A DNA stretch of 64,000 bases from Aestuariivirga sp. (lineage in GTDB: Bacteria; Pseudomonadota; Alphaproteobacteria; Rhizobiales; Aestuariivirgaceae): the NCBI RefSeq assembly GCF_020252395.1, contig NZ_JADCDB010000030.1, positions 1 through 64,000 of the forward strand, read 5' to 3'. The notes under the pieces are model-generated. The model did no database searches, was not told the DNA's origin, and saw nothing but the letters and a program-made list of their open reading frames with translations. The translations under genes and the position numbers were made by a program. This document shows positions 49,340 to 64,000 of the stretch, one piece after another (positions within the stretch are counted from its first letter, which is position 1; each line of letters opens with the position of its first letter).

Positions 49340-49759
49340 TTACCGGAAAACATAGATACGCTGCAGCATGAACGCCGTTGCGACCGTCGGCATGGCTGCA
49401 AGCAGGCCTGAAACATATGGCCCCAAGCCGAAATGCATGAGCAGCGAGATGATGCCAAGGTTCACGGCATAGAGAAGCATCCAGACCGCGACAAAACGGA
49501 AGAAACGGCCGCGCAGTGTGCTCAGGAAGACCAGGCGGCCAAGCGTCACAAAGCTGAGGCAAATGCCAAATGCGAGAGCGCCGAAGCTCGCGAGGGCGAC
49601 AGGCAGGCCTATCCACGTGAGCAGCGCATAGACGGCGAAACTGCTTGCGGTGTTGAACGAGCCGACGAGCGCATAGCGGATGATCTGCGGGGAAAGACTG
49701 TGGCGCGCCAATCCTGTCTTGCCGTCATTCTCAGCCAAGGCGGGACACCAGCCGCTCAT
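49340..49759 (-). CDS. GtrA-like flippase family protein
   Basis: A 139-aa membrane protein with four TM helices. IIRYALVGSFNTASSFAVYALL at residues about 24-45 is the GtrA-family opening, and ATAFMLQRIYVFR the close. GtrA-like proteins move polyprenyl-linked sugars across the membrane with a GtrB-type glycosyltransferase. ATG 49759 overlaps the end of the preceding glycosyltransferase by 29 bp; a TTG nearer its stop is possible. Confidence 0.85.
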   Translation of the reverse strand: MSGWCPALAENDGKTGLARHSLSPQIIRYALVGSFNTASSFAVYALLTWIGLPVALASFGALAFGICLSFVTLGRLVFLSTLRGRFFRFVAVWMLLYAVNLGIISLLMHFGLGPYVSGLLAAMPTVATAFMLQRIYVFR

Positions 49760-50540
49760 AAGCGCCAAACAAGCGCCTTTGCTGGCCCACGCTCCAGCAG
49801 CGCAGCCGGATTTGCGCGCGAAGCACAGGCGAAATCCGCATCCCATGCTTTGAAGCCAGTCGAAGATACTCATCGGCGGCGCCACCGAGCCAGCCCCAGG
49901 TACTGTTGCCAGCATGATAGCGATTGGCGATCAAGGCGCGCGGAATATGCCAGGCCGGCTGGAGCCTGGAAATCCGCCATGAGAGATCCAGATCCGGGCC
50001 ATAGCGGAAGGCGGGATCATACCGGTGAGGGCCGAGGGCGCTCCTGCGGACGAGCAAGGGGATGCCGAACATGTTGCGCGTCTTGAATATCGATTGGCGG
50101 CCTGCCTCGTCGGCGTCGAAACGGCCCGTGCGATGGAAGCGGCGCGTTGCAAGCCTACGGCGTTTTTCGCCGACATAGGCCAGATCGCAGTAAACGGCGG
50201 AAACGTCGCTATTGGCCTCCAGCACCGCACGTGCCGAGGATATGGCATCTGGCGCATTCAGATAGTCGTCGTGGGAGAGGACCATGTAAAAGGGATCTTC
50301 AACCCGGTCGAGGAGACCGTTGAAGTTCTCGACCATCGAAACCAGCGCGGGCTGACGGATCACCTCCAGCGGAAGGCGCTGCTTCCACGCCTCCAGTATG
50401 TCGGCCGTGCGGTCAGTCGATGCGTTGTCGCTGACGAGGACCCTGTCGGCCGGGCAGGTTTGCATGGCAATGGAGGCCAGCGCCTGTTCAAGATAATTGT
50501 CGCCATTCCGGACTGGTATACAGATGGTTACACGGGTCAT
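49731..50540 (-). CDS. Family 2 glycosyltransferase
   Basis: A 269-aa GT-A enzyme starting at ATG 50540. MTRVTICIPVRNGDNYLEQAL opens the fold, VLVSDNASTDRT is the first nucleotide-binding Asp region, VLSHDDYL near 98 is the DXD-type motif and RYGPDLDLSWRI holds the catalytic-base region (ED/DLDL). There is no TM segment. It likely adds a sugar in the surface-glycan pathway encoded around it. Confidence 0.88.
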   Translation of the reverse strand: MTRVTICIPVRNGDNYLEQALASIAMQTCPADRVLVSDNASTDRTADILEAWKQRLPLEVIRQPALVSMVENFNGLLDRVEDPFYMVLSHDDYLNAPDAISSARAVLEANSDVSAVYCDLAYVGEKRRRLATRRFHRTGRFDADEAGRQSIFKTRNMFGIPLLVRRSALGPHRYDPAFRYGPDLDLSWRISRLQPAWHIPRALIANRYHAGNSTWGWLGGAADEYLRLASKHGMRISPVLRAQIRLRCWSVGQQRRLFGAYERLVSRLG

Positions 50541-50605
50541 GGGCCTTCTTTCATGCCCCGTCCGCTTAACGCAATTTGCTTGAACATACAAGCATTTGGC
50601 TGCGT

Positions 50606-51565
50606 CTAATGACCAACCCGGGGTTGGCGATCCCTGTCGTGATCTTGCCGGAGTACGTAGAGAGGCCGCTCCTTAACCTGCGAGAATATCCGTCCCACAT
50701 AGAGGCCGACAATGCCCATGGTCATCAGGTTGATGCCACCCAGAAGGGAAAGGATCACGACGGTCGAAGCCCAGCCCTGCACGGTGGCGTCATGCAACAG
50801 CCAGTTGATGATCACGATGATGCCATAGGCGAGCGCTGCAAGAGAAACCGCGGTTCCGAACCAGAACGCCATGCGGAGCGGTGCGTCGGAAAAGCCAATG
50901 ATGCCGCTCAACGCAAGCCGGATCATCTTGATCAGCGGGTATTTCGTCTTTCCTGCATGGCGGCCTTGGCGAACATATTCTACGTAGGTTTGGCGGAAAC
51001 CCAGCCAGCTGATCATGCCGCGGACGAACCTGTCCTGCTCGCGCATGGACCGGAAGGATTCCACGACCTGACGGTCGAGCAGGCGGAAGTCGCCGACGTC
51101 CGGGTCAATTCCGACCGAGCTGAAACGGCGCAGAATGCGATAATAGATGTAGGCGGAAAGCCGCTTGAACAGCGTTTCGTTTTCCCGGCGGCTTCTCCTT
51201 CCCGAGACGATTTCCCAACCCTCTTTCCACTTGCCTATCATGGCAAGGACCACCTCCGGCGGATCCTGGAGATCCGCATCCATCACGATCACCGCGTCGC
51301 CCGATGCATGGTCCAGCCCAGCCGTTATGGCGATTTGGTGGCCGAAGTTGCGCGACATGCGCAACAGACGGTAGCGCGGGTCGTGCCGCGCCTTCTCCCG
51401 CAGCATGAATGCCGAGTCATCACGGCTGCCGTCATCGACAAGCAGGACCTCGACGCTGCCGTCAAGCTGGGCGATCAGCTTGTCAAGCCGGAGAATGAGC
51501 TCCGGAATCACTTCCGCCTCGTTGAAGATCGGAATGACGATACTGTAACGGATGTTGTCAGCCAT
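50606..51565 (-). CDS. GtrB/DPM1-type polyprenyl-phosphate glycosyltransferase
   Basis: A 319-aa GT2 enzyme with two C-terminal TM helices (about 225-250 and 262-288). YSIVIPIFNEAEVIPELI, VLLVDDGSRDDS and the catalytic VMDADLQDPPEV are classical, as is VGDFRLLDRQVV. It transfers a sugar from a nucleotide donor to undecaprenyl or dolichyl phosphate, which the GtrA-like protein could flip. Confidence 0.93.
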   Translation of the reverse strand: MADNIRYSIVIPIFNEAEVIPELILRLDKLIAQLDGSVEVLLVDDGSRDDSAFMLREKARHDPRYRLLRMSRNFGHQIAITAGLDHASGDAVIVMDADLQDPPEVVLAMIGKWKEGWEIVSGRRSRRENETLFKRLSAYIYYRILRRFSSVGIDPDVGDFRLLDRQVVESFRSMREQDRFVRGMISWLGFRQTYVEYVRQGRHAGKTKYPLIKMIRLALSGIIGFSDAPLRMAFWFGTAVSLAALAYGIIVIINWLLHDATVQGWASTVVILSLLGGINLMTMGIVGLYVGRIFSQVKERPLYVLRQDHDRDRQPRVGH

Positions 51566-51804
51566 TTTCCTTCCGTCACGCCCCTTTCCCGGAACGCGCC
51601 GCGATCAGCCTAAGCGGTTGCCGGTTCCATATTGGTTAAGGTTTCGGCTGCCGGATGCGCGCTGGAACTATGCCGTCGCCCAAGGCTTGCGGTTGCACGG
51701 GCGCGGCAGGCAGGCTTTAAGGATTGATAGGCGATCGTTACGGTTTTATAAGGCCGTCCGGCGAGTGACGGATGGCGGATCGGGGAATCTGGGCAGATGA
51801 TGCG
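51566..51804. promoter_or_regulatory. Divergent promoter region of the glycan locus
   Basis: A 239-bp region between the GtrB-like gene (minus) and rfbF (plus). It is less GC-rich than neighbouring DNA, with CGATCGTTACGGTTTTATAAGG upstream of rfbF containing a TTTATAA box that could be a -10-like element. GATGATGCGATGAAG contains in-frame ATG choices; the conserved MKAVILAGG start was used. Confidence 0.45.
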
Positions 51805-52572
51805 ATGAAGGCGGTGATCTTGGCGGGGGGCTACGGTACCCGCATCTCCGAAGAATCCACGCTCCGGCCGAAGCCCATGGTGGAGATCGGAGGCCGGCCC
51901 ATCCTGTGGCATGTCATGAAGATATATGCCGCTCACGGCATCACCGATTTCGTCATTTGCCTCGGCTACAAGGGATATGTCATCAAGGAGTTCTTCGCCA
52001 ATTACTACCTGCATGGCGCGGACGTAACGGTGGACACCAGTACAGGCTCCATGGAGTTCCACGAGGCGGTAACGGAACCCTGGCGGGTGACGTTGTCGGA
52101 AACCGGACTCGACACGATGACGGGCGGCCGGCTCCGAAGGGTGACGCGCTATCTGGGCGACGGTCCGTTCTGCATGACCTACGGCGATGGCGTGAGCAAT
52201 GTCGATATTGGCAAGCTCATCGCATTTCACAAGAACCACGGCAAGGCAGCCACGCTGACTGCCGTAAACCCGCCCGGACGTTTCGGGTCCCTCGACCTCA
52301 AGAGTTCGCGAGTGGAGCGTTTCACGGAGAAACCCCCCGGAGACGGCACATACATCAGTGGCGGCTTCTTTGTCCTCGAACGCCGCGCGCTGGATGCCAT
52401 CGAGGATGACCAGACTGTCTGGGAACGTGGCCCTCTCGAAAAGCTCACCGCGGCCGGAGAATTGATGGCCTATCGTCACGATGGTTTCTGGCAGCCTATG
52501 GATACGCTGCGCGACAAGCAGCATCTCGAAACCCTGTGGCAGTCGGGACAGGCGCCCTGGAAGATATGGTAG
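51805..52572 (+). CDS. rfbF: Glucose-1-phosphate cytidylyltransferase
   Basis: A 255-aa nucleotidyltransferase. [18 protein letters not shown] and [19 protein letters not shown] form the CTP/sugar-phosphate site; [10 protein letters not shown] near residue 128 holds a metal Asp; [24 protein letters not shown] and [13 protein letters not shown] are diagnostic of RfbF. It makes CDP-glucose, committing the locus to CDP-linked deoxysugars. The next gene overlaps by 7 bp. Confidence 0.95.
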
Positions 52573-53648
52573 GCAGGCTTCCCGATGCGAATTTCTGGGA
52601 GGGCCGGCGCGTTCTGTTGACAGGACACACCGGCTTCAAGGGCGCGTGGCTCGCGCTGTGGCTGAAGCGCCTTGGCGCCGTGATCAGCGCTGTCGCGCTG
52701 CCGCCGCCTGCGGGACCGTCACTCGCCAACGCAGCGCGTGCCGATGAAGCCTGTTCAGGGATCATGCTCGACATTCGCGATGCCGCGGCGCTTGCTCATG
52801 CCGTGCGCGAGAGCAGGCCTTCCGTCGTGTTCCACCTCGCGGCGCAGGCGCTCGTACGCCAGTCACTGGCGGACCCGCGACAGACATTCGAAACCAATGT
52901 GAACGGAACGCTCAATCTTCTCGAGGGCGTGAGAAACGCGGAGGGCATCGACGCTGCGGTCTTCGTCACGAGCGACAAGGTCTATCTGAACGACGGACGC
53001 GAGCGGCCGTATCGTGAAGATGACGCGCTAGGCGGCAAGGATCCCTACTCAGCATCCAAGGCGGCCTGCGAGATTGTCATCAGGAGCTATGCGGAATGCT
53101 TCTTCCCCACCGGGCGGCCGGCAATTGCGACGGCAAGGGCGGGCAACGTGATCGGCGGCGGCGACTTCGCTGTCGACCGGATTGTGCCAGACTGCGTTCG
53201 TGCCGCGGCTGGCAATAGGTCCATCCTGCTGCGCCACCCCCGTTCGGTGCGGCCCTGGCAGCATGTGCTTGACTGCCTGTGCGGATATCTCCTCTTTGCG
53301 GAGACGCTTGTCAGCGCCCCGGCAGGCCTGCCGCGCGCGCTCAACTTCGGGCCCGGCGGCAGACGCGCAGTGACCGTGGAATCGATCGCAATTGCCATGC
53401 GGGACGCGCTCGGTTCGTCATCGCAGATCACCCATGCGGCGCAGCACGACGATCGCGAATCGGGCCTTCTCCTGCTTAACAGCGATCTTGCCCGCAGCAG
53501 CCTTGGCTGGCAGGACCGGCTTCCGGCCGATCTCGCCATTGCATGGACTGCCGGCTGGTACCGGCAGTGGTCCGAAGGCAAGGACATGCGGGCGCTGACT
53601 CTCGCGCAAATCGAGGGCTATGGCGCGATACGGGAGCATGCTGAATGA
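52566..53648 (+). CDS. rfbG: CDP-glucose 4,6-dehydratase
   Basis: A 360-aa extended [21 protein letters not shown] near residue 17 is the NAD site typical of Rfb[24 protein letters not shown] with the catalytic Thr/Asp/Lys, and [11 protein letters not shown] with the Tyr-x3-Lys pair follow. [17 protein letters not shown] is also specific. It makes CDP-4-keto-6-deoxyglucose. ATG 52566 is used; the longer track start lies inside rfbF. Confidence 0.95.
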
Positions 53649-54877
53649 GCGTGCCCTGCCGCTATTGCCAATCGCCTCTGGCTCTCGAACTTATTGATCT
53701 CGGCCAGCAGCCGCTTGCCAACAGCTATCTCGAACCCAGCCCTGCTGCCATCGCAGCAGAACCGCGCTTTCCGCTGCGCATCATGATCTGTGAGGCCTGC
53801 TACCTCGTCCAGGTCGAGGAGAGCATTCCGGCTGAGACAATATTCGACGCGAACTATGCCTATTTCTCGTCCTATTCGTCCTCATGGGTTGCCCATGCCA
53901 AGCGATTCACCGATGAGGCGGCCCAACGCTTCGTGCTGGGGCCGGACTCAATGGTCATCGAGATCGCGTCAAACGACGGTTATTTGCTTCAGCACTTTGT
54001 CGCCCGGAACATTCCCTGCCTTGGCATAGAGCCCGCCGGAAATTGCGCGGAAGCCGCGCAGGCCCGTGGCGTTGAGACCATGGTGGCCTTCTTCAACCGC
54101 GATACGGCGCGGCACCTCGCCGGCACGGGAATCAGGGCTGATCTGATGATTGCCAACAATGTACTGGCCCACGTACCGGACATCAGCGGTTTCGTGGCGG
54201 GTTTTCCGCTGGTGTTGAAGCCGCAGGGTGTCGCCTGTTTCGAATTTCCCCACCTTCTAAGCATGATTTCCGGCTGCCAGTTCGACACGATCTATCACGA
54301 GCACTATTCCTATCTGTCGCTGACCATCGTGGACCGCATCCTGAAACAGAACGGAATGCGCATCTTCGATGTCGAGAAATTATCCACGCATGGCGGCAGC
54401 CTGCGCGTCTTTGTCTGCCTTCAAGGCGCAGACCACGATGAAACCGCGCGTGTGGCTGCGCTCCGGCAGGATGAAACGGCAGCCGCACTCGATCAGCCCC
54501 GCGGCTACCGTGATTTTGCGTCACGGGCACGGCTCATGCGCGATGACCTGCTGGACTATCTGGCCGCGATCCGGAAGCGCGGCGAGCACGTCGCTGCCTA
54601 TGGCGCGGCGGCCAAGGGAAACACCTTCCTGAACTATTGCGGCGTAGGGCCCGCCGATATCGGCTTCGCTGTCGACCGCAATCCCCGGAAGCAAGGAAAG
54701 CTGCTGCCGGGCTCCCACATTCCCGTCGCACCTCCGGATCTCTTGCGGACGGCGCGTCCAAAAGCCATTCTTATCCTGCCGTGGAACCTCGTCGGGGAAA
54801 TCGCTGCCGAACATGCCTATGTGCGCGAATGGGGTGGCCACTTCGTTGTTGCATCGCCGAAGCTGCGGCAGTTGTGA
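53645..54877 (+). CDS. NDP-sugar C-methyltransferase (TylCIII type)
   Basis: A 410-aa three-domain methyltransferase. The N-terminal zinc domain has CRYC (5-8) and CEAC near 48-51. The SAM domain begins VIEIASNDGYLLQHF near residue 99. The active-site HEHYSYLS near 215 and THGGSLRVFV are typical. The C-terminal domain has AYGAAAKGNTFLNYCG. Family members add a methyl at C3 of 4-keto-6-deoxy sugars; here the CDP-4-keto-6-deoxyhexose from RfbG is the likely substrate. ATGA overlap with rfbG. Confidence 0.9.
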   Translation: MSVPCRYCQSPLALELIDLGQQPLANSYLEPSPAAIAAEPRFPLRIMICEACYLVQVEESIPAETIFDANYAYFSSYSSSWVAHAKRFTDEAAQRFVLGPDSMVIEIASNDGYLLQHFVARNIPCLGIEPAGNCAEAAQARGVETMVAFFNRDTARHLAGTGIRADLMIANNVLAHVPDISGFVAGFPLVLKPQGVACFEFPHLLSMISGCQFDTIYHEHYSYLSLTIVDRILKQNGMRIFDVEKLSTHGGSLRVFVCLQGADHDETARVAALRQDETAAALDQPRGYRDFASRARLMRDDLLDYLAAIRKRGEHVAAYGAAAKGNTFLNYCGVGPADIGFAVDRNPRKQGKLLPGSHIPVAPPDLLRTARPKAILILPWNLVGEIAAEHAYVREWGGHFVVASPKLRQL

Positions 54878-54878
54878 C

Positions 54879-55433
54879 ATGAGGATATCCGCCGTGTCCA
54901 TCCCCGGCCTCGCTGTCGTGACGGCTGACACCGCAAAGGATGAGCGCGGCGCCTTTACGAGATTCTATTGTGGCGAGACCTTCGCAGCCGCCGGGCTTGG
55001 CTTCACGCCCATGCAGGTCAATCTGTCACGCAACCCGGCGCGGCACACATTGCGGGGCATGCATTATCAGGATCCGCCCAGGGCGGAAGCAAAGCTTGTG
55101 CATGTGACGCGCGGCGCCATCTATGACGTGGCGCTGGATCTGCGGCCAACCAGCGCCACATATTGCCGCTGGTTCGGCATCCGGCTTGATGCAACTTCAT
55201 CGGCCGGGATTTTCATTCCCGAAGGCTTCGCGCATGGCTACATCACGCTGGAACCCGATTCCGACGTGCTCTACCACATGGGACGCATCTTCGAGCCTGG
55301 CTTCGGCAAGGGTGTTCGCTGGAACGATCCCACCTTCGCGATCGACTGGCCTGCGCACCCGGCGGTCATCTCCGAACGCGATGCCCATTACCCTGACTAC
55401 GCCGGCCAAGACGGGCCGGAGACCGCGGATTGA
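54879..55433 (+). CDS. dTDP-4-dehydrorhamnose 3,5-epimerase-like protein
   Basis: A 184-aa RmlC-fold cupin. DERGAFTRFYCGETFAAAG, NLSRNPARHTLRGMHYQ (the catalytic His in RGMHYQ), AIYDVALDLRPTSATY and IPEGFAHGYITLE are conserved. It should epimerise the 4-keto sugar at C3 and/or C5, probably the C-methylated CDP intermediate. ATG 54879 starts 1 nt after the methyltransferase stop. Confidence 0.9.
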   Translation: MRISAVSIPGLAVVTADTAKDERGAFTRFYCGETFAAAGLGFTPMQVNLSRNPARHTLRGMHYQDPPRAEAKLVHVTRGAIYDVALDLRPTSATYCRWFGIRLDATSSAGIFIPEGFAHGYITLEPDSDVLYHMGRIFEPGFGKGVRWNDPTFAIDWPAHPAVISERDAHYPDYAGQDGPETAD

Positions 55434-55452
55434 TCCGCCGCCGGCCGGCCGG

Positions 55453-56223
55453 TCATCTTGTTCTCTTCAGGAAGCCGTCCGATGCCACCGTGATGAGAAG
55501 CTTGGTATCCATCAGCTTGTCGATTTCGAACTCATCATGATGCTTCAGATATTCCCGCACCGCCGTCTTGGGATTGTTGCCCTTGCCCCAGGGGCGGTCC
55601 GGGTAATGCCCTTCCGGCATGTCTTCGATCAATGTGTCGTACACGACACAGTAACTCCCAACGCTGGTGAGTGGGGCATATGCCTCGAGTTCTGCCAGCA
55701 CATGTTCATGCGTGTGGTTGGAATCGAGGAGCACCATGACCCGATTGAATGAACTTGCCCGGGCCCTGACGCTTTCGATCACCTTCCGGTCGGCCGAAGA
55801 CCCCTGGATCATGTCGATGCGGTGGCGCAGCGGATGAGCCTCGACGGCCGCGCGATTGTGGGATCGTATGTCTATGTCGACTCCAAGCACGCGCCGCCGT
55901 GGCTTACTCGGGTCAAGTGGTTTTCCGCTCTCGACGGCTTCGGCATACTCAATCAGTGCAAGGATCGATGCACTGAGGATGAGCGAACCCCCATGCGCAA
56001 TGCCAGTTTCGATGATGAGGTCAGGCTTCACCTGCCAGATCAGCTCCTGTGTTGCGACGATATCCTGCGGATACTGGATGATCGGGCGGCCCAACCAGAA
56101 AAAATTGTAGGGGTAAAGCGCAGCGGAACTGGCGCGCAGGAAAGCGCCAGCCTCGGCAACGAGCGTGTCGTCCGCCCACCACCGGGTGACCCGCTCAGCG
56201 ACCTCTTTTTCATGCTGTGTCAA
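55453..56223 (-). CDS. Cephalosporin-hydroxylase/rhamnosyl O-methyltransferase family protein
   Basis: A 256-aa CmcI-family methyltransferase. LGRPIIQYPQDIVATQELIW is the family signature, PDLIIETGIAHGGSLILSAS forms the SAM-binding region and VLLDSNHTHEHVLAELEAY the metal/active-site strand. Such proteins O-methylate sugars of cell-surface glycans. Its ATG overlaps the stop of the epimerase gene upstream. An O-methylated end sugar is plausible. Confidence 0.85.
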   Translation of the reverse strand: MTQHEKEVAERVTRWWADDTLVAEAGAFLRASSAALYPYNFFWLGRPIIQYPQDIVATQELIWQVKPDLIIETGIAHGGSLILSASILALIEYAEAVESGKPLDPSKPRRRVLGVDIDIRSHNRAAVEAHPLRHRIDMIQGSSADRKVIESVRARASSFNRVMVLLDSNHTHEHVLAELEAYAPLTSVGSYCVVYDTLIEDMPEGHYPDRPWGKGNNPKTAVREYLKHHDEFEIDKLMDTKLLITVASDGFLKRTR

Positions 56224-57116
56224 GGCAGATTTCCTTCAGTTGAACGAATCGTGGTGAGATTCCTGCCCGCACCGTCAGGCATGGAAAGCAAGCGCCTGAT
56301 CTTGGTGGCGTCACCCCAGAAGGCAAGGGGCTCAAGGTCGGAATAGGAAAAATGCCCAAGGTTGAGCTCCATGCGCACACCACGTTCCCGGATCCAGCCT
56401 TCAACCAGACTGCGGACCGAAACGGGCTTGCCTGAACAAACATTGACGGGTCCAGGATCGCCATGTCCCAGGGCAAGCCGGGCAATCATGTCGCCCATGA
56501 CGGGTGCTGGAAGATAGTCGCGCAACTGGTCGCCGGGCGACATGTTGAACAGAGCCTCGCCGCGGGATGCCGCGCGCAGGAACTGCCCGAACAGGGACGT
56601 CTCCGGCTGACCATCGCCAAATGTATAGAAGAGCCGGGCCCACACCAAGGAAAAGGAAAGGTTCCGCTTCAGGAATTCTATCTCGCGACGAAGTGCATCC
56701 TTGGCAAACCCATATGGATTGGAGGGGCGGGTGGGGTCCGTCTCCGCCAGCGCTCCCGGCTGCATGCCGTATTCGAAACAGGTGCCCGTCACCAAAAGCC
56801 GCCCGAGGCCGCCCATCAAGAGGTATTTCAGAAAGAGATATTGCCGCGGAAGTTCAACCTCAAAATGGTGTGCGGAATTGTAGTTGGGCAGTCCGTGCCA
56901 CGCCATGTGCAAGACACAGTCTGGCCGCCCCAGCAGATCAAAGGCATCGCTCCGCGGTTCCGCCATGTCGAGGTGAGCCATGGAGCATCCCTCCAGCCAT
57001 GGCTTGGGGTTGCTTGCGGTTCGCATCATGGCGGTAACGCGCGCACCCCTTGACAGCAAGGCAGGAACGACGTGCCTACCCAGAAAGCCCGTAGCACCCG
57101 TCACCGCGATGTGCAT
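56220..57116 (-). CDS. NAD-dependent epimerase/4-ketoreductase
   Basis: A 298-aa extended SDR starting at ATG 57116. GATGFLGRHV is the cofactor motif; LVTGTCFEYG replaces the usual TSS-x-VYG strand, and NPYGFAKDALRRE holds the Tyr-x3-Lys pair. RDYLPAPVMGDMIARLA and VNVCSGKPVSVRSL are typical of RfbJ/CDP-abequose-type reductases. It may reduce the 4-keto group as the last step to the activated sugar. Confidence 0.87.
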   Translation of the reverse strand: MHIAVTGATGFLGRHVVPALLSRGARVTAMMRTASNPKPWLEGCSMAHLDMAEPRSDAFDLLGRPDCVLHMAWHGLPNYNSAHHFEVELPRQYLFLKYLLMGGLGRLLVTGTCFEYGMQPGALAETDPTRPSNPYGFAKDALRREIEFLKRNLSFSLVWARLFYTFGDGQPETSLFGQFLRAASRGEALFNMSPGDQLRDYLPAPVMGDMIARLALGHGDPGPVNVCSGKPVSVRSLVEGWIRERGVRMELNLGHFSYSDLEPLAFWGDATKIRRLLSMPDGAGRNLTTIRSTEGNLP

Positions 57117-57305
57117 TTTTCTGCCTCCTTGGCCCAACCGCCGTACACTGAAGATCAACCGTCATGTTGCCAGGTTACTGGGTCTTCGTGACTGACGAAC
57201 GCGCAAGCTGCCAGAATCACTGCGGCAGGTAAAGCGCAGCCAGACCTCCACGTGAACGGGATGAAGGGCCGGAAGCCGGCGCCATGAAACAGCATTGATG
57301 CGGTG

Positions 57306-58181
57306 CTAGCTTGCCCGCTGGGCAGCGGCCAGTTCTGCGGCCTCGATTTCGGCCCAGTCACCGGCAGGCATGACCCTGGCTGCCTCGGCCACGTCCCGTG
57401 TCCATACGAACAGGCAGAGGAAAGGCACGGCCCCCACCTTCGTCAGATGCGGCTGCAGGGATGGGTTCCACACCGGCTCGCCTGCGGGCTTGACGATGAG
57501 CGGGCGTTCCGGCGCGAAACGCCAGCCGTGGGGCCCCGTGAGTGGCGCGTAGAGTTCCGGCGCGCGGTGGCAATGATCGCGGTAGAGCACATGCGGCGCG
57601 ATGAGGAACAGGCCCAGTTCGAAATCCGCCGCTGGGAAGGGCGCATCACCGCCGGCGATCGCCGCAAAGGCATGGCCTTCGGCGAAGCTCTCGCCGATCT
57701 CGTGGCGAGGGTAACGGTCATAGCTGATCCAGGCGAGATGGGGTGCGGCCGCCGCAATCGCGTCCGCGAGATGCGGGGCATGTTCTGCTGCGTGGCGAAG
57801 GGCCGTCTCCAGCCAGCGCTCGACGACCGGGTGCTGCTTTGCCGGACTGTGGCCCGCCTCAGGCCCGCAGCGCGCCAGACCGCGGCGCACGTCCTCATGG
57901 CCGGGGTGGGTGAGATCCGCGAGGTAGTCGCCCGCGGCCGCAAGCAGCCGCCGCAGGACGCTGGCCGCCGAACCGGGCAGAGGCAGCACCGGTGGCAGCC
58001 CGCGTTCCTGCAGCAGTGTGGCGGGGTCGCGCGCGTCGAAGGGCGAGGCCTCGCGATAGAGATCGAGCTGCGCCTCGCTCAGCACGCCCTGGCGGAACAG
58101 TTCCATCGCCGCGCCATAGCGCACGCGGCCCGAACCCGGGATGCCAAGAGGCGTGTGCAGCAGCTGCAGCGTTTCATCCAT
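57306..58181 (-). CDS. DMSP-lyase-like cupin protein
   Basis: A 291-aa protein. The C-terminal cupin has His203 and His205 in YRDHCHRAPELY, Glu209, Tyr211 and a further His245 in NPSLQPHLTKVG, the ligand set (two His, Glu/Tyr, His) of DddL/DddQ/DddW-type dimethylsulfoniopropionate lyases. The N-terminal 150 residues are helical. Family members cleave DMSP to DMS and acrylate, but many relatives are uncharacterised. It overlaps the permease gene by 8 bp and closes the Rieske/Pot-type operon. Confidence 0.72.
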   Translation of the reverse strand: MDETLQLLHTPLGIPGSGRVRYGAAMELFRQGVLSEAQLDLYREASPFDARDPATLLQERGLPPVLPLPGSAASVLRRLLAAAGDYLADLTHPGHEDVRRGLARCGPEAGHSPAKQHPVVERWLETALRHAAEHAPHLADAIAAAAPHLAWISYDRYPRHEIGESFAEGHAFAAIAGGDAPFPAADFELGLFLIAPHVLYRDHCHRAPELYAPLTGPHGWRFAPERPLIVKPAGEPVWNPSLQPHLTKVGAVPFLCLFVWTRDVAEAARVMPAGDWAEIEAAELAAAQRAS

Positions 58182-59013
58182 TGGCGCGGAATGCCATTTG
58201 CTCGTCCAACTGGCGGCGGCGCCCGGCGCGGTTCATGGCAATGCCGGCAACCGCCACGCCGATCGCCACGACGCTCACCATCAGGGTTGCCAGGGCATTG
58301 ATGTCGGGCGTTACGCCAAGCTTCACCTTGGACCAGATGAGCAGCGGCAGCGTGGTGCTGCCAGGCCCCGTGGTGAAGGAGGTGATGACCACATCGTCGA
58401 GCGAGATGGTGAAGGCCAGCAGCCAGCCGGACATGATGGCGGGCGAGATCACCGGAATGGTCACGTCGCGCATCACCTGCCAGGGCCGCGATCCCAGGTC
58501 CATCGCCGCTTCCTCGATCGACCGGTCCGACTGCAGCATGCGGGCCTGCACGATGGTGGTGACGAAAACCATGGAGAAGGTGATGTGGGCGAGCGTCACC
58601 GTGGTGAAGCCGCGCTCGCCCGGCCAGCCGATCCAATCCGCCATCAGGATGAAGAACATCAGCGACGAGATGCCGGTGATCACCTCCGGCATGATCAGGG
58701 GCGCGGTGACGAGGCCGGAGAACAGCAGCCGGCCGCGGAAACTCGGGAATCGCGCAAGTGCGATCCCCGCCATGGCGCCGAGGATGGTGGCGATGGTGGC
58801 GGAGACCAGCGCGATCTCCAGCGACAGAACCAGCGCATCGAGCACCTGCTTGTTGGAAAACAGAGCGAAATACCACTTGGTCGAGAATCCGCCCCATACG
58901 CTGGCGAGCCGCGAGGCGTTGAAGGAGTAGACGATCATCGACAGGATGGGGATGTAGAAAAAAGCGAAGCCGAAGGCCAGCATCGAGACCAGGAAACTGT
59001 GACGGCGCTTCAC
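58174..59013 (-). CDS. Spermidine/putrescine-type ABC transporter permease, PotC-like
   Basis: A 279-aa permease of the BPD_transp_1 family with six TM helices. FFYIPILSMIVYSFNASRL opens it, and the EAA loop EEAAMDLGSRPWQVMRDVTIPVI contacts the ATPase. FTISLDDVVITSFTTGPGSTTLPLLIW is the PotC-typical segment. It overlaps both neighbours and pairs with the PotB-like permease. Confidence 0.93.
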   Translation of the reverse strand: MKRRHSFLVSMLAFGFAFFYIPILSMIVYSFNASRLASVWGGFSTKWYFALFSNKQVLDALVLSLEIALVSATIATILGAMAGIALARFPSFRGRLLFSGLVTAPLIMPEVITGISSLMFFILMADWIGWPGERGFTTVTLAHITFSMVFVTTIVQARMLQSDRSIEEAAMDLGSRPWQVMRDVTIPVISPAIMSGWLLAFTISLDDVVITSFTTGPGSTTLPLLIWSKVKLGVTPDINALATLMVSVVAIGVAVAGIAMNRAGRRRQLDEQMAFRANG

Positions 59014-59927
59014 TTTGAACCCTCCGCCTTGGCCTGGAAATGGCCATAGATCACGGCAGGCCCCACCATGAGCACCAGCAGCACCACGGCAATGGCCGAC
59101 GCCATGGGCCAGTCGCGCGCCGCGGAGAACTGGTCGGAGATCACCCGCCCGATCATCGGGCTTGCGGCGTCGCCCACCAGTGTCGGGATCACGAGTTCGC
59201 CGGCGGCCGGGATGAAGACCAGCATGCCGCCCGCCACGATGCCGGGAATGCTCTGCGGCAGCGTCACATCGAGGAACACCTGCCAGGGCCTGGAACCGAG
59301 ATCGAGGGCCGCCTCGTCAAGCGCCGGGTCGAGGCGCTCGAGGCTGGCATAGAGCGGCAGGATCATGAAGGGCAGGTAGGTATAAACCATCACCAGCACG
59401 ACGGCGAAGTTCGAGTGCATCATCGGCATGAAGTCGACGGCCCAGCCTTGCGGCACGATGGCGTTCCAGATCTTGGTGAGCCCCACGTTGAACCAGCTCG
59501 AGCGGCCCATCAGCCCCATCCAGGCATAGACGCGCAGCAGGAAGGAGGTCCAGAAGGGCAGGATCACCAGCATGAGCAGGATGTTGCGCCAGCTCTTCGA
59601 CACGCGGGTGAGGCCCAGCGCCATGGGATAGCCGATGAGCAGGCACAGGGCCGTCGCGATGCCGGCACTCACCAGCGAGGTGATGAAGGCGCGGAAATAG
59701 AGTGTGTCCGTAACCGCGCGCGCATAGCCCTGGAGATTGACCAGCGGATAATCGCCGCCGAACGAGATGGGCGGCGCTGTCGCCGTCTTGGTGGCGACAC
59801 TCATCGCGATGACGATGAGGAAGGGCAGGAGGAAGAAGAACAGCAGCCAGACATAGGGCACGCCGATCAGCAGGTTGGACCAGCCTTTGCGGTCGAACCA
59901 GCGCTGCAGGCCCTTGCGATCCATCAT
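59010..59927 (-). CDS. Spermidine/putrescine-type ABC transporter permease, PotB-like
   Basis: A 305-aa permease starting at ATG 59927, next to the ATPase stop; the longer track ORF runs back through potA. WLLFFFLLPFLIVIAMSVATK begins TM1, MVYTYLPFMILPLYASLE is family-typical, and the EAA loop DEAALDLGSRPWQVFLDVTLPQ is intact. The pore partner is the PotC-like gene downstream. Confidence 0.93.
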   Translation of the reverse strand: MMDRKGLQRWFDRKGWSNLLIGVPYVWLLFFFLLPFLIVIAMSVATKTATAPPISFGGDYPLVNLQGYARAVTDTLYFRAFITSLVSAGIATALCLLIGYPMALGLTRVSKSWRNILLMLVILPFWTSFLLRVYAWMGLMGRSSWFNVGLTKIWNAIVPQGWAVDFMPMMHSNFAVVLVMVYTYLPFMILPLYASLERLDPALDEAALDLGSRPWQVFLDVTLPQSIPGIVAGGMLVFIPAAGELVIPTLVGDAASPMIGRVISDQFSAARDWPMASAIAVVLLVLMVGPAVIYGHFQAKAEGSK

Positions 59928-59928
59928 C

Positions 59929-61032
59929 TCACCCCGCCAGCACGATGGCGGAGGATGGCGCGAAGGAGATCCACACCCGGTCATCCCAGCCGGCGGCGCG
60001 CGAGCCCTCGCCGCCGCGCCGGGCATTGACCGCGTGGGCCTGCACCAGCGCGCCCGACGGCAGCACCACGCGATAGAGGCTGTCCTTGCCGAAATAGGCA
60101 AGGTCCTTCACCGTGCCCTGGAAGGCATTGGCGCCCTCGGGACGTTCCTTCGAAATGAGCAGCTTCTCCGGGCGGATGGCGAGGGTTGCCTCCTGCCCCT
60201 CAGCAAGGCCCGGAACGTCGCGCGCCATCACCTCGCCGCCCAGCGCCGGCACCGACAGCCGCAACTGCTCCGCTTGCCGCTCGACAATGGTGGCCGGGAA
60301 GGAGGTGATGGAGCCGATGAAGCCGGCCACGAATTTGCTGTTGGGGAATTCATAGACCTCGCCAGGGCTGCCCACCTGCCTCACCTCGCCCCGGTCCATC
60401 ACCGCGATGCGGTCGGACAGCGTCATCGCCTCTTCCTGGTCATGGGTGACGACGATGAAGGTGACGCCGGTGCGCTGCTGTATCGACATCAGCTCGAACT
60501 GGGTGCGCTCGCGCAGTTTCTTGTCCAGCGCCGCCAGCGGCTCGTCGAGGAGCAGCAGCTTGGGCTGGCGGGCGAGTGCCCTTGCGAGCGCCACGCGCTG
60601 GCGCTGGCCGCCCGAGATCTGGTGCGGCTTGCGCGTCGCATAGGGCAAGAGCTGCACGAGCTCCAGCATCTCGCGCACCCGCGCCGCTTTCTGCCCGGCC
60701 GCCATGTTCTCGTGCTTCAGGCCGTAGCCGACATTCTTCTCGACACTCATATGCGGGAACAGGGCATAGGACTGGAACATCATGTGGACCGGGCGGTCCC
60801 ACGGGGCCACCCCCGTCATGTCCCGTCCGTCAAGGAAGATCTTGCCGGAGGACGGCTCCTCGAAGCCCGCCAGCATGCGGAGCAGCGTGGTCTTGCCGCA
60901 GCCCGAGCCGCCGAGCAGCGAGAAGATCTCGCCCTTGTTGATGCTGAGCGTGACGTTACGCACCGCCTGGAAGGGACCGAAGAACTTCGAGATGTTCTCG
61001 ATCCTGAGGAAGGGCTCCCCCGCCGCCGCCAT
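59929..61032 (-). CDS. Spermidine/putrescine-type ABC transporter ATPase, PotA-like
   Basis: A 367-aa ATPase. Walker A GGSGCGKTT near residue 37, Q-loop MMFQSYALFPHM, signature ISGGQRQRVALAR near 138, Walker B LLLLDEPLAALDKKLRE and H-loop VTHDQEEAMTLSDR are perfect. A C-terminal TOBE-like regulatory domain (about 245-365) includes LAIRPEKLLI. It powers import of the compound bound by the next protein. Confidence 0.95.
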   Translation of the reverse strand: MAAAGEPFLRIENISKFFGPFQAVRNVTLSINKGEIFSLLGGSGCGKTTLLRMLAGFEEPSSGKIFLDGRDMTGVAPWDRPVHMMFQSYALFPHMSVEKNVGYGLKHENMAAGQKAARVREMLELVQLLPYATRKPHQISGGQRQRVALARALARQPKLLLLDEPLAALDKKLRERTQFELMSIQQRTGVTFIVVTHDQEEAMTLSDRIAVMDRGEVRQVGSPGEVYEFPNSKFVAGFIGSITSFPATIVERQAEQLRLSVPALGGEVMARDVPGLAEGQEATLAIRPEKLLISKERPEGANAFQGTVKDLAYFGKDSLYRVVLPSGALVQAHAVNARRGGEGSRAAGWDDRVWISFAPSSAIVLAG

Positions 61033-61036
61033 AATG

Positions 61037-62146
61037 TCAGCCGCCCGTCTTGATCTCGGTCCAGGTGCGGGTCAGCGTCTCTTCCTGCTCGGGCGTCATG
61101 GGGTTCAGGGTAAAGAGCCGGGCCTTGGTTTCGGCATTGGGGTAGATCGCGGGGTCGCTGGTGATCGACTTGTCGACCAGGGGCGTTGCCGCCTTGTTGG
61201 CATTGGCATAGCCGATGAAGTTGGTTGCGGCGGCGACGACCTCAGGCCGCAGCATGTAGTTGAGAAAGACATAGGCATTGTCGGCGTTCTTCGCATCCGA
61301 GGGAATGGCCCACACGTCGAACCAGGCCGGCGCACCCGACTTCGGCACGAAATATTCGAGATCGAGCTCGATGCCCGCATCCGCCGCGCGCTTCTTGGCC
61401 ACGCCATAGTCGCCCGACCAGGTGTTGACGGCGCAGACCTCGCCATTGGGCAGCGTGGTGAGAAAGTTGGTATTGTCGAAGGTGGCGATGTAGGGCCTGA
61501 TCTTGGCGAAGGCCTTGGCCAGTTTCTTGTAGTCATCGGGCCCGGCCTTGTTCGGGTCTATGCCCAGCCACTTCATGACAACCGGCCCGATGTCGGTGGG
61601 ACTGTCGAGAATCGAGAGGCCGCAGCTCGCAAGCTTCTGGGCATTGTCGGGATTCATGATCGTATCGAGGCTGTTGAAATCGGCGTCCGGCAGCAGCTTC
61701 TTCACCATGTCCATGTTGTAGGTAAAGCCCACCGTGCCCCAAGTATAAGGCACGCCATAGCCGTTGCCGGGGTCGAAGCCCTGGAGAATCTGCAGGATCT
61801 CGGGATCGAGGTTCTTCCAGTTCGGCAGCTTGGATTTGTCGAGCTTCTGGTAGACCTTGGCCTTCACCATCTGCGGCAGCTTGAGACCCGCCTGCAGCAC
61901 CACGTCGTAACCGGAAGACCCGGCCAGCATCTTGGCCTCCATCTCCTCCGAGCTTGCATACATGTCGTAGACGACCTGGATGCCGGTTTCCTTGGTGAAG
62001 TCGGCGATGGTGCTTTCGCCGATATAATCAGCCCAGTTATAGACATTCACCACGCCTTGATCGGCGCTTGCGCGGCGCACCCAGGGCATGCCAATTCCGG
62101 CGGCGGCGGCCATGGCGGCCATGACGTTACGGCGGGTCAGCGGCAT
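61037..62146 (-). CDS. Polyamine/onium-type ABC transporter substrate-binding protein, PotD/PotF-like
   Basis: A 369-aa type 2 binding protein starting at ATG 62146 with GGGAGGA upstream. TRRNVMAAMAAAAGIG resembles a twin-arginine signal, cleaved near ASA-DQ. VVNVYNWADYIGESTIADFT and ETGIQVVYDMYASSEEMEAKML are typical of PotD/PotF. VNTWSGDYGVAKKRAADAG follows. Ligand is a cation; with Rieske demethylase-like enzymes and the cupin in the operon, a methylated onium compound is as likely as a polyamine. Confidence 0.92.
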   Translation of the reverse strand: MPLTRRNVMAAMAAAAGIGMPWVRRASADQGVVNVYNWADYIGESTIADFTKETGIQVVYDMYASSEEMEAKMLAGSSGYDVVLQAGLKLPQMVKAKVYQKLDKSKLPNWKNLDPEILQILQGFDPGNGYGVPYTWGTVGFTYNMDMVKKLLPDADFNSLDTIMNPDNAQKLASCGLSILDSPTDIGPVVMKWLGIDPNKAGPDDYKKLAKAFAKIRPYIATFDNTNFLTTLPNGEVCAVNTWSGDYGVAKKRAADAGIELDLEYFVPKSGAPAWFDVWAIPSDAKNADNAYVFLNYMLRPEVVAAATNFIGYANANKAATPLVDKSITSDPAIYPNAETKARLFTLNPMTPEQEETLTRTWTEIKTGG

Positions 62147-62181: not shown

Positions 62182-63399
62182 CTAGAACGAGGCCGTGGAC
62201 TGGCAAATCAATTCTTCATTCGCACGCGGCAAAGGTCTGTCCGAAGGTTCAGCGGGCAGCGTCATGACGGGCATCAGCTTGCGCAAGCCGTCGTGGTGGC
62301 GGCGCAGCCCATATTCGAGATCGGAGAGGTGGAAGCCCTCGAAGGCCTCCGACTTCATCGACTCGTTCGACCAGATCGAAAGCTGCTGGTCTTCCGCCGA
62401 GGTGAAGCGGTCGATGCGGAAGGCGAGGTAGCGCGCCAGCCGCGTGGCGCGGCTTTCATTGGGCCAGCGGTACATGCGGCCGGAAAGCCGCGTACGCCCG
62501 GGGCCCAGCGGGATCTCCTGATAGAACTGCGCTCCTTCCGGCGTCACCGCGAAGACCGCATTGGGGAACAGCCCGTAATAGGTCCAGGCCTTCTGCAGAT
62601 GCAGCGGAAGATCGGGGCGCGGCGGCGAGATGCGCGCGTAATTCTTCACCGACCAGCCGCGCGCCGCACCCTCGTCGAACCAGCCGATCGACACCGACAG
62701 CCCATCCTTCAGGTGCAGGTCGCGATAGGTGCGGCCATAGAGTTCCTGCAGGCCCGGATGGGCGAGCGCCACGTGATAGCCCTCGTTATCGACGTCACGC
62801 ACCGACTTCCAGTTCACCGGAAGTTCCGCCGTCCAGTCGAGGTTGCGCGCCGGCAGCAGCTTCTCGAGGCCGTAGGCAGCGAAGTCGGTTTCGTAGGGAG
62901 CGAGCAGTTCGGAAACCGATGGCTGCGGGCCCGGCTTGAAGCGGATGAAGATGAAGCCTTGGAACATCTCCATCTCGATCGGCTTCAGTCCGAAATCCTC
63001 GCGCTTCAACTCGCCGAAGCTCGAAGGCCGCGCCGCGCCGCGCAAGGATCCATCGAGATTATAGACCCAGCCATGGAACGGGCAGACGATGGCGCCCTTG
63101 CAATGGCCCTTGCTGCCATCGACGACGCGGGCGCCGCGGTGGCGGCAGAGATTGTGGAAGGCGCGCACCACGCCGTCCTGCCCGCGCATGATGACGGCGC
63201 GCTCGCCCAGCATGTCGAAGGAGAGCCAGTCGCCCGCCGCCGGAATGTTGCCGACATGGCCCACCACCTGCCAGTGGGTGAGGAACAGCTGGTCGCGCTC
63301 GAGGTCGAAGAGCGCCTGCGAATGATAGGTCCAGGCGGGCAGGCCGCCGCGGTCCCAGCCGTTTGGAATGGCAATGGTGTCGTAGGGAAGTCCGGTCAT
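62182..63399 (-). CDS. Rieske non-heme iron oxygenase alpha subunit
   Basis: A 405-aa oxygenase. The Rieske [2Fe-2S] ligands lie in NLCRHRGARVVDG and VCPFHGWVYNLDG (Cys-x-His and Cys-x2-His). The mononuclear iron site begins DVDNEGYHVALAHPGLQE, with the 2-His pattern, and the bridging Asp is in DVDNE. Members with this C-terminal domain demethylate or hydroxylate quaternary amines, carnitine or aromatic acids. No reductase gene is in the window. ATG 63399 overlaps the stop of the next Rieske gene. Confidence 0.9.
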   Translation of the reverse strand: MTGLPYDTIAIPNGWDRGGLPAWTYHSQALFDLERDQLFLTHWQVVGHVGNIPAAGDWLSFDMLGERAVIMRGQDGVVRAFHNLCRHRGARVVDGSKGHCKGAIVCPFHGWVYNLDGSLRGAARPSSFGELKREDFGLKPIEMEMFQGFIFIRFKPGPQPSVSELLAPYETDFAAYGLEKLLPARNLDWTAELPVNWKSVRDVDNEGYHVALAHPGLQELYGRTYRDLHLKDGLSVSIGWFDEGAARGWSVKNYARISPPRPDLPLHLQKAWTYYGLFPNAVFAVTPEGAQFYQEIPLGPGRTRLSGRMYRWPNESRATRLARYLAFRIDRFTSAEDQQLSIWSNESMKSEAFEGFHLSDLEYGLRRHHDGLRKLMPVMTLPAEPSDRPLPRANEELICQSTASF

Positions 63400-64000
63400 G
63401 GTTCAGGCTCCATTGCCTTGCGCACCCATTGGTGGAAGCGGTGGATCTCGTATTCCTCGGGCATCAGCCGCGCCGCGCGGAAGGCGGGCGAGCGCATGCC
63501 GCGCTGGTTCATTTCGGAAGCCGCGCCATCCTGCTCGATGACCAGCGTGGCGAAGGCGGCGACAGCCGCGGCATCGAAGCCCGGCTGGGCCAGCGTCTCC
63601 CGGCTGAAATGCCATTCGGCCACGAGGCGCGTGCGCTCCGGCGCCACGGGCTCGATCCGCACCGAGCGCACATAGTCTGCATGGGCCACCACATAGGCGG
63701 CAGGCCACAGCGTCACGAACGTGTAGCCCGCCAGCCGCTCCGCCTCGGAGAGACCGGGGAAGATGGGCCCGCAGGGCGCGCCACTCGTGGTCCAACTTGT
63801 TGCGCCAGGGCGCAGGCGGGAGTTTGGCGGGTCTTCCGGCGTCCAGCCAAACGCTTCGGACGGGCCCATGATGCCTTTGCCATAGACCGGCGCCATGTCG
63901 CAGAGTTCCGGGTGGATGCCGGGGCAATGCAGGCACTCGGAATAATTTTCCCAGAAGGTTTTCCAGTTGCAGGCGATCTCCGTCTGCCAGCGATGGCCCG
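63396..64000 (-). CDS. Rieske oxygenase alpha subunit, GbcA-like (5' part beyond window)
   Basis: An open frame runs past the window end: the track begins at an internal Met, but reading upstream gives CNWKTFWENYSECLHCPGIH and PELCDMAPVYG, the mononuclear-iron region of glycine-betaine/choline-type Rieske monooxygenases. The C-terminal half (about 200 residues) is present, with FVTLWPAAYVVAHADYVRSV and ERTRLVAEWHFSRE. The Rieske cluster domain is outside the window. It is the most upstream visible gene of the operon. Confidence 0.88.
   Translation of the reverse strand, partial: GHRWQTEIACNWKTFWENYSECLHCPGIHPELCDMAPVYGKGIMGPSEAFGWTPEDPPNSRLRPGATSWTTSGAPCGPIFPGLSEAERLAGYTFVTLWPAAYVVAHADYVRSVRIEPVAPERTRLVAEWHFSRETLAQPGFDAAAVAAFATLVIEQDGAASEMNQRGMRSPAFRAARLMPEEYEIHRFHQWVRKAMEPEP

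Follow-up and report, generated by a model that had tools for sequence, protein, structure and literature searches.

The window analysed here is a stretch of 64,000 nucleotides from Aestuariivirga sp. (contig NZ_JADCDB010000030.1, positions 1 to 64,000). It contains a seven-gene operon on the minus strand, which encodes, in this order, two Rieske oxygenases (Rsk1 and Rsk2), the four subunits of a Pot-type importer (PotF, PotG, PotH and PotI) and, as the last gene, a cupin (Table 1). The genes overlap or are separated by gaps of at most 36 bp. Rsk1 crosses the edge of the window and extends to contig position 64535 (locus L008). A first-pass annotation had described the cupin gene as co-encoded with a Pot-type importer and Rieske oxygenases and as overlapping a permease gene, and both descriptions are borne out: the genes form one tight operon with two Rieske genes, and the 5' end of the cupin gene shares 8 bp with the permease gene. 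The identical 8-bp overlap is found in seven more loci (L003, L004, L029, L030, L034, L035 and L078), so the cupin gene is real and coupled to its neighbour. L004 is from Aestuariivirga litoralis, which has the same operon; going by the nearest loci, the genome of the window is from the genus of this species. The observation is far beyond chance.

Table 1. Features of the operon and its regulator, with window coordinates unless marked otherwise.
Feature	Coordinates	Strand	Remarks
Cupin-DLL protein (Pfam: PF16867), 291 aa	57306..58181	-	ATG start; catalytic/metal set Y200 H203 H205 E209 Y211 H245, W260
N-terminal domain of the cupin (residues 1-70)	57972..58181	-	homologous to a free-standing ~80-aa protein of relatives
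PotI/PotC-type permease	58174..59013	-	BPD_transp_1; best NCBIfam match PotI, 310.6 bits, below the equivalog cut-off
PotH/PotB-type permease	59010..59927	-	282.3 bits against the PotH cut-off of 489
PotG/PotA-type ATPase	59929..61032	-	potA subfamily TIGR01187, 385 against a cut-off of 355.6
PotF-type binding protein	61037..62146	-	W37 D39 Y40 W244 D247 D278 Y314 kept
Rsk2, Rieske oxygenase alpha subunit, CntA/GbcA-like	62182..63399	-	bridging E205, D at position 203
Rsk1, Rieske oxygenase alpha subunit, Stc2-like	63396..64000	-	Y203/E205 quaternary-ammonium signature
BetI-like TetR regulator	contig 64683-65345 (outside the window)		divergent from the operon

The regulator scores 105 against a cut-off of 201 for the BetI equivalog (TIGR03384) and is therefore called BetI-like only. 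Between the regulator and Rsk1, a near-palindromic block with the consensus TTGACTGGTTGAACTGTCAATCAA is conserved in five species and resembles a BetI-type operator (L008:8598-8620, contig 64597-64619, outside the window). This candidate site came from the five-species alignment; a search for inverted repeats in the intergenic region of the regulator gave no hit at the thresholds used. The operon contains no Rieske reductase gene, no acuI, acuR or dddT and no BCCT or OpuA gene.

Promoter and terminator scans 3' of the cupin gene found nothing. The region downstream of the operon (49340-57158) looks, judging by its ORF sequences, like a nucleotide-sugar/glycosyl-transfer cluster. Coding scores are lower there, which suggests a differing codon usage and possibly an acquired stretch.

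The cupin and its family

The cupin matches the Pfam family DMSP_lyase (Pfam: PF16867) with residues 111-255 at 78.3 bits (E 7e-22; curated cut-off 27). In a single-sequence search of the PDB its nearest solved structures were solely DMSP lyases, namely 4b29 (1.7e-7), 5cu1 and the DddQ structures 5jso/4la2. Glucose-6-phosphate isomerase cupins were among its distant profile matches. The 3-His-1-Glu metal site and the two catalytic tyrosines of the cupin-DLL family are all present. The six residues Y200, H203, H205, E209, Y211 and H245 align with the published catalytic residues Tyr120, His123, His125, Glu129, Tyr131 and His163 of DddQ (PMC4437653), and W260 aligns too. The five residues that the first-pass annotation had named (His203, His205, Glu209, Tyr211 and His245) are numbered correctly and match the DddQ set. 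An AlphaFold2 model of the cupin, built from five sequences only, reached a mean pLDDT of 41.5 and was set aside.

The same annotation had taken this metal site as the mark of a DMSP lyase, and here the comparison with the family leads elsewhere. Our cupin set comprised 108 proteins, of which four or five are an isolated ~80-aa domain or a fragment and were left out of the conservation analysis. At every one of the six catalytic positions, about 95-99% of the members (~100 of 104) keep the residue. As the catalytic set is near-universal in PF16867, including members in unrelated operons, it is a mark of the family as a whole and does not single out DMSP lyases. Among the cupins of the gene module described below, there is a single His-to-Arg change (L017/L036), and all others keep the full lyase set with both catalytic tyrosines.

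In the phylogenetic tree, the module cupins form one clade (support 0.92), which also takes in a single orphan encoded on a Mesorhizobium plasmid. The DddQ structures and the cupin of an acuR-acuI-dddL type locus (L097) fall outside this clade and show 21-26% identity. L097, which consists of a TetR regulator, an AcuI homolog and the cupin, is the sole locus with an AcuI homolog among those fetched up to and including the class-wide PF16867 survey. The genome of the window has an acuI gene over the cut-off (C1:4627), which is unlinked to the operon. In general, acuI genes are common and their presence is not specific for DMSP lysis. Tree and gene neighbourhood place the cupin in a distinct cupin-DLL clade within a predicted methylated-amine module. 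No description of such a module was found in the searched open-licence PMC papers.

Compared with DddQ, DddL, DddW and DddK, the window cupin shares the cupin domain and the complete catalytic set, and likely the same metal-carboxylate/tyrosinate chemistry. It differs by its separate clade and its surroundings, Rieske oxygenases and a polyamine-type importer in place of a linked acuI, and by an extra N-terminal domain. This domain has no match to any Pfam family even at E 10. Its ~80-aa homologs are encoded after potI or after a GcvT gene in relatives. According to the alignment, the window cupin gene is a fusion of this ~80-aa domain with the cupin; the fusion is found in ten loci.

There are also PF16867 proteins in other settings. 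In R. etli p42f and relatives, a PF16867 cupin lies in an N-demethylation cluster with ProVWX, TMADH-like, ETF and formaldehyde genes. As in the window and its relatives, the cupin adjoins an onium importer and a TMADH-like flavoenzyme (the window has the importer, the relatives also the TMADH-like gene). The R. etli clusters differ in having a ProVWX importer as well as ETF and formaldehyde genes and neither Rieske nor PotFGHI genes, and their cupin is only 22-25% identical. Another example is Phaeobacter, with a PF16867 cupin beside a CoA ligase, a hydroxyacyl-CoA dehydrogenase, a thiolase and a betaine-type importer.

The betaine-type clusters of Rhizobium contain a second PF16867 protein next to the ETF genes (L080:10282-10980, L084:11369-12061). 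It aligns as F H Q R F F, having lost most metal and catalytic residues, and is possibly a non-catalytic paralog. L045-L056 and L064 hold additional PF16867 paralogs, which share about 30-37% identity with the window cupin; several of them lie near genes for a Pot-type ATPase, DUF1194, an iron alcohol dehydrogenase, an M24 peptidase, an alpha/beta hydrolase or an amidase.

The importer, the Rieske oxygenases and a larger module in relatives

The importer is closer to PotFGHI than to PotABCD. All four NCBIfam equivalog cut-offs are missed, with scores of 378.6 (cut-off 636) for PotF, 426.5 (613) for PotG, 282.3 (489) for PotH and 310.6 (476) for PotI; the ATPase does meet the broader potA subfamily (Table 1). 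The binding protein keeps the amine-binding residues D39, D247 and D278 and the aromatic box W37/W244/W276; all PotF orthologs of this type likewise have the three acids and the box, with F or W at position 276. The roles of the PotF pocket residues, including D39 and D247 as proximal amine acids, have been described (PMC8666671). The distal pocket of the window protein is altered by E185D, S87L and F88K. Across the orthologs E185D is again seen, S87 is replaced by Leu, Ile, Met or Gln in most and position 88 is variable. Like the PotFGHI putrescine importer, the system thus has four subunits in one operon and a binding protein with amine-binding acids and aromatic box; it differs in its distal pocket, in the missed cut-offs and in its linkage to methylamine enzymes.

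Because the amine acids and the aromatic box are conserved, a polyamine-like ligand is predicted for the binding protein, and we infer a polyamine-like cationic amine head with a bulkier or more hydrophobic distal group, for example an N-methyl group. This prediction disfavours DMSP and glycine betaine as import substrates by the reasoning of the first-pass annotation, which had counted missing lyase activity together with a binding protein specific for putrescine or spermidine against its own proposal.

A polyamine-type importer had been called unusual in this role. That view does not fit the surveys, as Pot-type permeases lie near about seven of some 57 class-wide PF16867 loci and a Pot importer is present in 28 of the 39 FAD-FAD-GcvT loci introduced below. 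With the query counted, the genome of the window encodes about six PotI homologs that score above 130 bits, so some chance neighbours of PF16867 genes are to be expected and the enrichment of Pot permeases is modest. The association of PF16867 with importers of cationic compounds is recurrent.

Group V Rieske oxygenases, which act on quaternary ammonium compounds, are recognised by a bridging Glu205 together with an aromatic residue (Va) or Asn (Vb) at position 203, where Tyr203 is the cation-pi residue of group Va (PMC7948474). Glu205 is found in Rsk1, in Rsk2 and in every readable ortholog. Rsk1 has the complete Y203/E205 signature in 14 of 14 readable sequences, and its nearest structures in the PDB are 3n0q and then the stachydrine demethylase Stc2. 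Rsk2 is nearest to the carnitine monooxygenase CntA and has Asp203 in all readable sequences, so that it belongs to neither Va nor Vb by position 203. The pair thus resembles the group V enzymes CntA, GbcA and Stc2 in its structural matches, in E205 and, for Rsk1, in Y203 and C206/C209; it differs from them by the tandem arrangement of two alpha-subunit genes, by an operon without a reductase gene and by Asp203 of Rsk2.

Beyond the window, gene calling on the fetched loci showed a larger module in the same genus and outside it. It comprises a BetI-like TetR regulator, a class III aminotransferase, two CrtO-like FAD oxidoreductases (FADa and FADb) and a GcvT-like protein. Furthermore, it holds Rsk1, Rsk2, PotFGHI, the ~80-aa protein, a flavoprotein similar to TMADH and histamine dehydrogenase, the cupin, an amidohydrolase and a methyltransferase. 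A plasmid of Fuscovulum ytuae (Rhodobacterales) carries a near-full copy with the fused cupin and without the TMADH-like gene. The window holds a reduced module of the Rieske pair, the importer and the cupin. Its genome has no close orthologs of FADa (best identity 29%), the GcvT-like protein (35%) or the amidohydrolase (31%), and its closest TMADH-like homolog shows 52% identity. Other enzymes would therefore have to take the downstream steps.

The first-pass annotation had seen in the operon the import and breakdown of a methylated sulfonium or ammonium compound. A methylated onium compound still fits, and the ammonium version is favoured by the group V signature of Rsk1, the BetI-like regulator and the TMADH-like, GcvT-like and FAD enzymes of the relatives. 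The proposed role of the cupin as a DMSP lyase is the part that finds no support.

A survey for the FADa-FADb-GcvT triad returned 39 loci, two of which overlap in one genome. Of these, 28 contain a Pot-type importer, 5 the cupin and 9 an ADP-forming acyl-CoA synthetase and/or an acyl-CoA dehydrogenase. The cupin and the synthetase or dehydrogenase occur together in none of the 39, a count that comes from few and related, hence non-independent, loci, some of them cut by contig ends. Two of the synthetases were checked, and DddX is the solved structure nearest to both, at 278 and 270 bits, with 213 and 226 bits for the runner-up. DddX is an ATP-dependent DMSP lyase, for which a figure legend gives Tyr391 as the cation-pi residue (PMC8163506). 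Both checked proteins keep the phospho-histidine and the Trp at chain position 391 and lack the proposed base E432. The sister modules without cupin hold an ADP-forming acyl-CoA synthetase of DddX-like type; relative to the cupin, such an enzyme has another fold, is CoA-dependent and is absent from the window operon. It may be that cupin and CoA route stand in for each other in processing the same carboxylate, as cupin lyases and DddX do for DMSP; the DddX-like proteins may also be plain acyl-CoA ligases.

The triad is found with a BetI-like regulator, a methyltransferase and a Pot-type importer across Alphaproteobacteria (L146, L149-L155, L177 and others), and several of these loci then carry the ~80-aa protein. 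It has the look of a pathway that breaks down methylated amines; a limited search of open-licence PMC papers found no described counterpart of the FAD-FAD-GcvT-Pot module. An aldehyde dehydrogenase is present in two of the larger modules, and the one in L068 is closest to PuuC of the polyamine pathway, below its cut-off. In one relative, a 120-aa ChrR-type Cupin_7 protein (L048:9667-10029, minus strand) replaces the DMSP_lyase cupin between the ~80-aa protein and the amidohydrolase. A DmdA role was considered for the GcvT-like protein of the relatives and rejected (score 121 against a cut-off of 410).

A candidate route for a methylated amine and its alternatives

In the reading that we prefer, with a probability of about 45%, the operon imports and demethylates an N-methylated, polyamine-like amine, and the cupin acts on a carboxylate intermediate as a metal-dependent beta-lyase that probably breaks a C-N bond. 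The PotFGHI-type system would take up a quaternary or tertiary N-methylated amine with a polyamine-like cationic head, which the two Rieske oxygenases would then oxidise or demethylate. In the larger modules the aminotransferase, in two cases with the aldehyde dehydrogenase, could convert a primary amine to the carboxylate form. In the cupin, the metal would bind this carboxylate and a tyrosinate would take the alpha proton, upon which the beta onium group leaves. The leaving group would likely be an amine, yielding acrylate or a related unsaturated acid, which would be DMSP-lyase chemistry with nitrogen replacing sulphur.

The mechanism proposed for DMSP cleavage by DddK has the carboxylate bound to the metal and a tyrosinate as the base; DddK also accepts secondary amines, dimethylamine among them, and couples them to acrylate (PMC12582016). 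It follows that this active site is able to form a C-N bond beta to a carboxylate and, the reaction being reversible, to cleave it as well. As the amine addition was near completion at 100 mM (PMC12582016), eliminating a secondary amine may be an uphill reaction, except where acrylate is drawn off or a quaternary amine leaves.

The preferred reading draws support from the Rsk1 signature, the PotF pocket, the BetI-like regulator, the module enzymes, the DddQ-type site and the chemistry of DddK, and also from the mutual absence of cupin and DddX-like enzyme and from the PF16867 cupins in other N-demethylation clusters. It is weakened by the lack of close module orthologs in the window genome, by Asp203 of Rsk2 and by the operon having no Rieske reductase. 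The mutual absence counts for less given the few related loci, the partial contigs and the missing E432 of the DddX-like proteins.

In a more specific version, which we hold to be unlikely, the cupin would be specialised as a C-N beta-lyase ('aza-DMSP lyase'). The Pot system would bring in a methylated polyamine, the primary amine of which would be oxidised to a carboxylate, and the resulting beta-ammonio acid, of the beta-alanine betaine type, would be split into amine and acrylate; the DddX-like CoA-dependent enzyme of the sister modules would do the equivalent job. As specific substrates, diatom methylated polyamines, trimethyllysine and beta-alanine betaine were considered and set aside, having no support beyond guesswork.

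The alternative that survives best, though we regard it as somewhat doubtful, is a cupin without lyase activity, acting in N-methylamine catabolism as an isomerase, a hydrolase, a dioxygenase or an accessory metal protein, for example as a partner of the ~80-aa protein and of the FAD/GcvT or TMADH-like enzymes. The distant glucose-6-phosphate isomerase matches would suit such a role, as would the ~80-aa protein, which is encoded behind GcvT elsewhere and forms part of the cupin in the window, the Cupin_7 protein in the cupin's place in one relative, and the second R. etli PF16867 protein without most metal ligands. It is harder to reconcile with the full lyase set, including both tyrosines, in all module cupins except for the one His-to-Arg change, and with the mutual exclusion of cupin and DddX-like enzyme.

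A genuine DMSP lyase of the DddL/Q/W type, in an operon that imports DMSP or DMSP and betaines, appears improbable and has no specific support. Its catalytic residues, its solved relatives and the acuI gene of the genome agree with it, but the residues are near-universal in the family, the clade is separate at 21-26% identity, acuI is unlinked, the importer has polyamine-binding residues, BCCT and OpuA genes are missing and the GcvT-like partner is far from the DmdA cut-off. Very unlikely, too, is an ordinary operon for putrescine or spermidine uptake and use with the cupin and Rieske genes as incidental neighbours: the conserved PotF pocket and the strong PotFGHI similarity would be expected of it, but it leaves the Rieske pair unexplained, as well as the missed equivalog cut-offs, the gene order with the 8-bp overlap at eight loci, the many genomes that link Rieske genes to PotFGHI and the full module of a Rhodobacterales plasmid. 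To our knowledge, Rieske oxygenases with the quaternary-ammonium signature have no role in plain polyamine use.

Consequences for DMSP-lyase annotation

Many genes annotated as 'DMSP lyase' are taken as evidence for the production of dimethyl sulfide. As the diagnostic residues are also present in members from operons for nitrogen compounds, annotation based on these residues would overestimate DMSP cycling. The known cupin DMSP lyases have a millimolar Km for DMSP (PMC5395565). If true, an 'aza-DMSP lyase' would give a part of the cupin-DLL family, with its poor affinity for DMSP, a physiological role, and the linked importer, with a ligand that can be measured, makes the ancestral role of the cupin-DLL fold testable.
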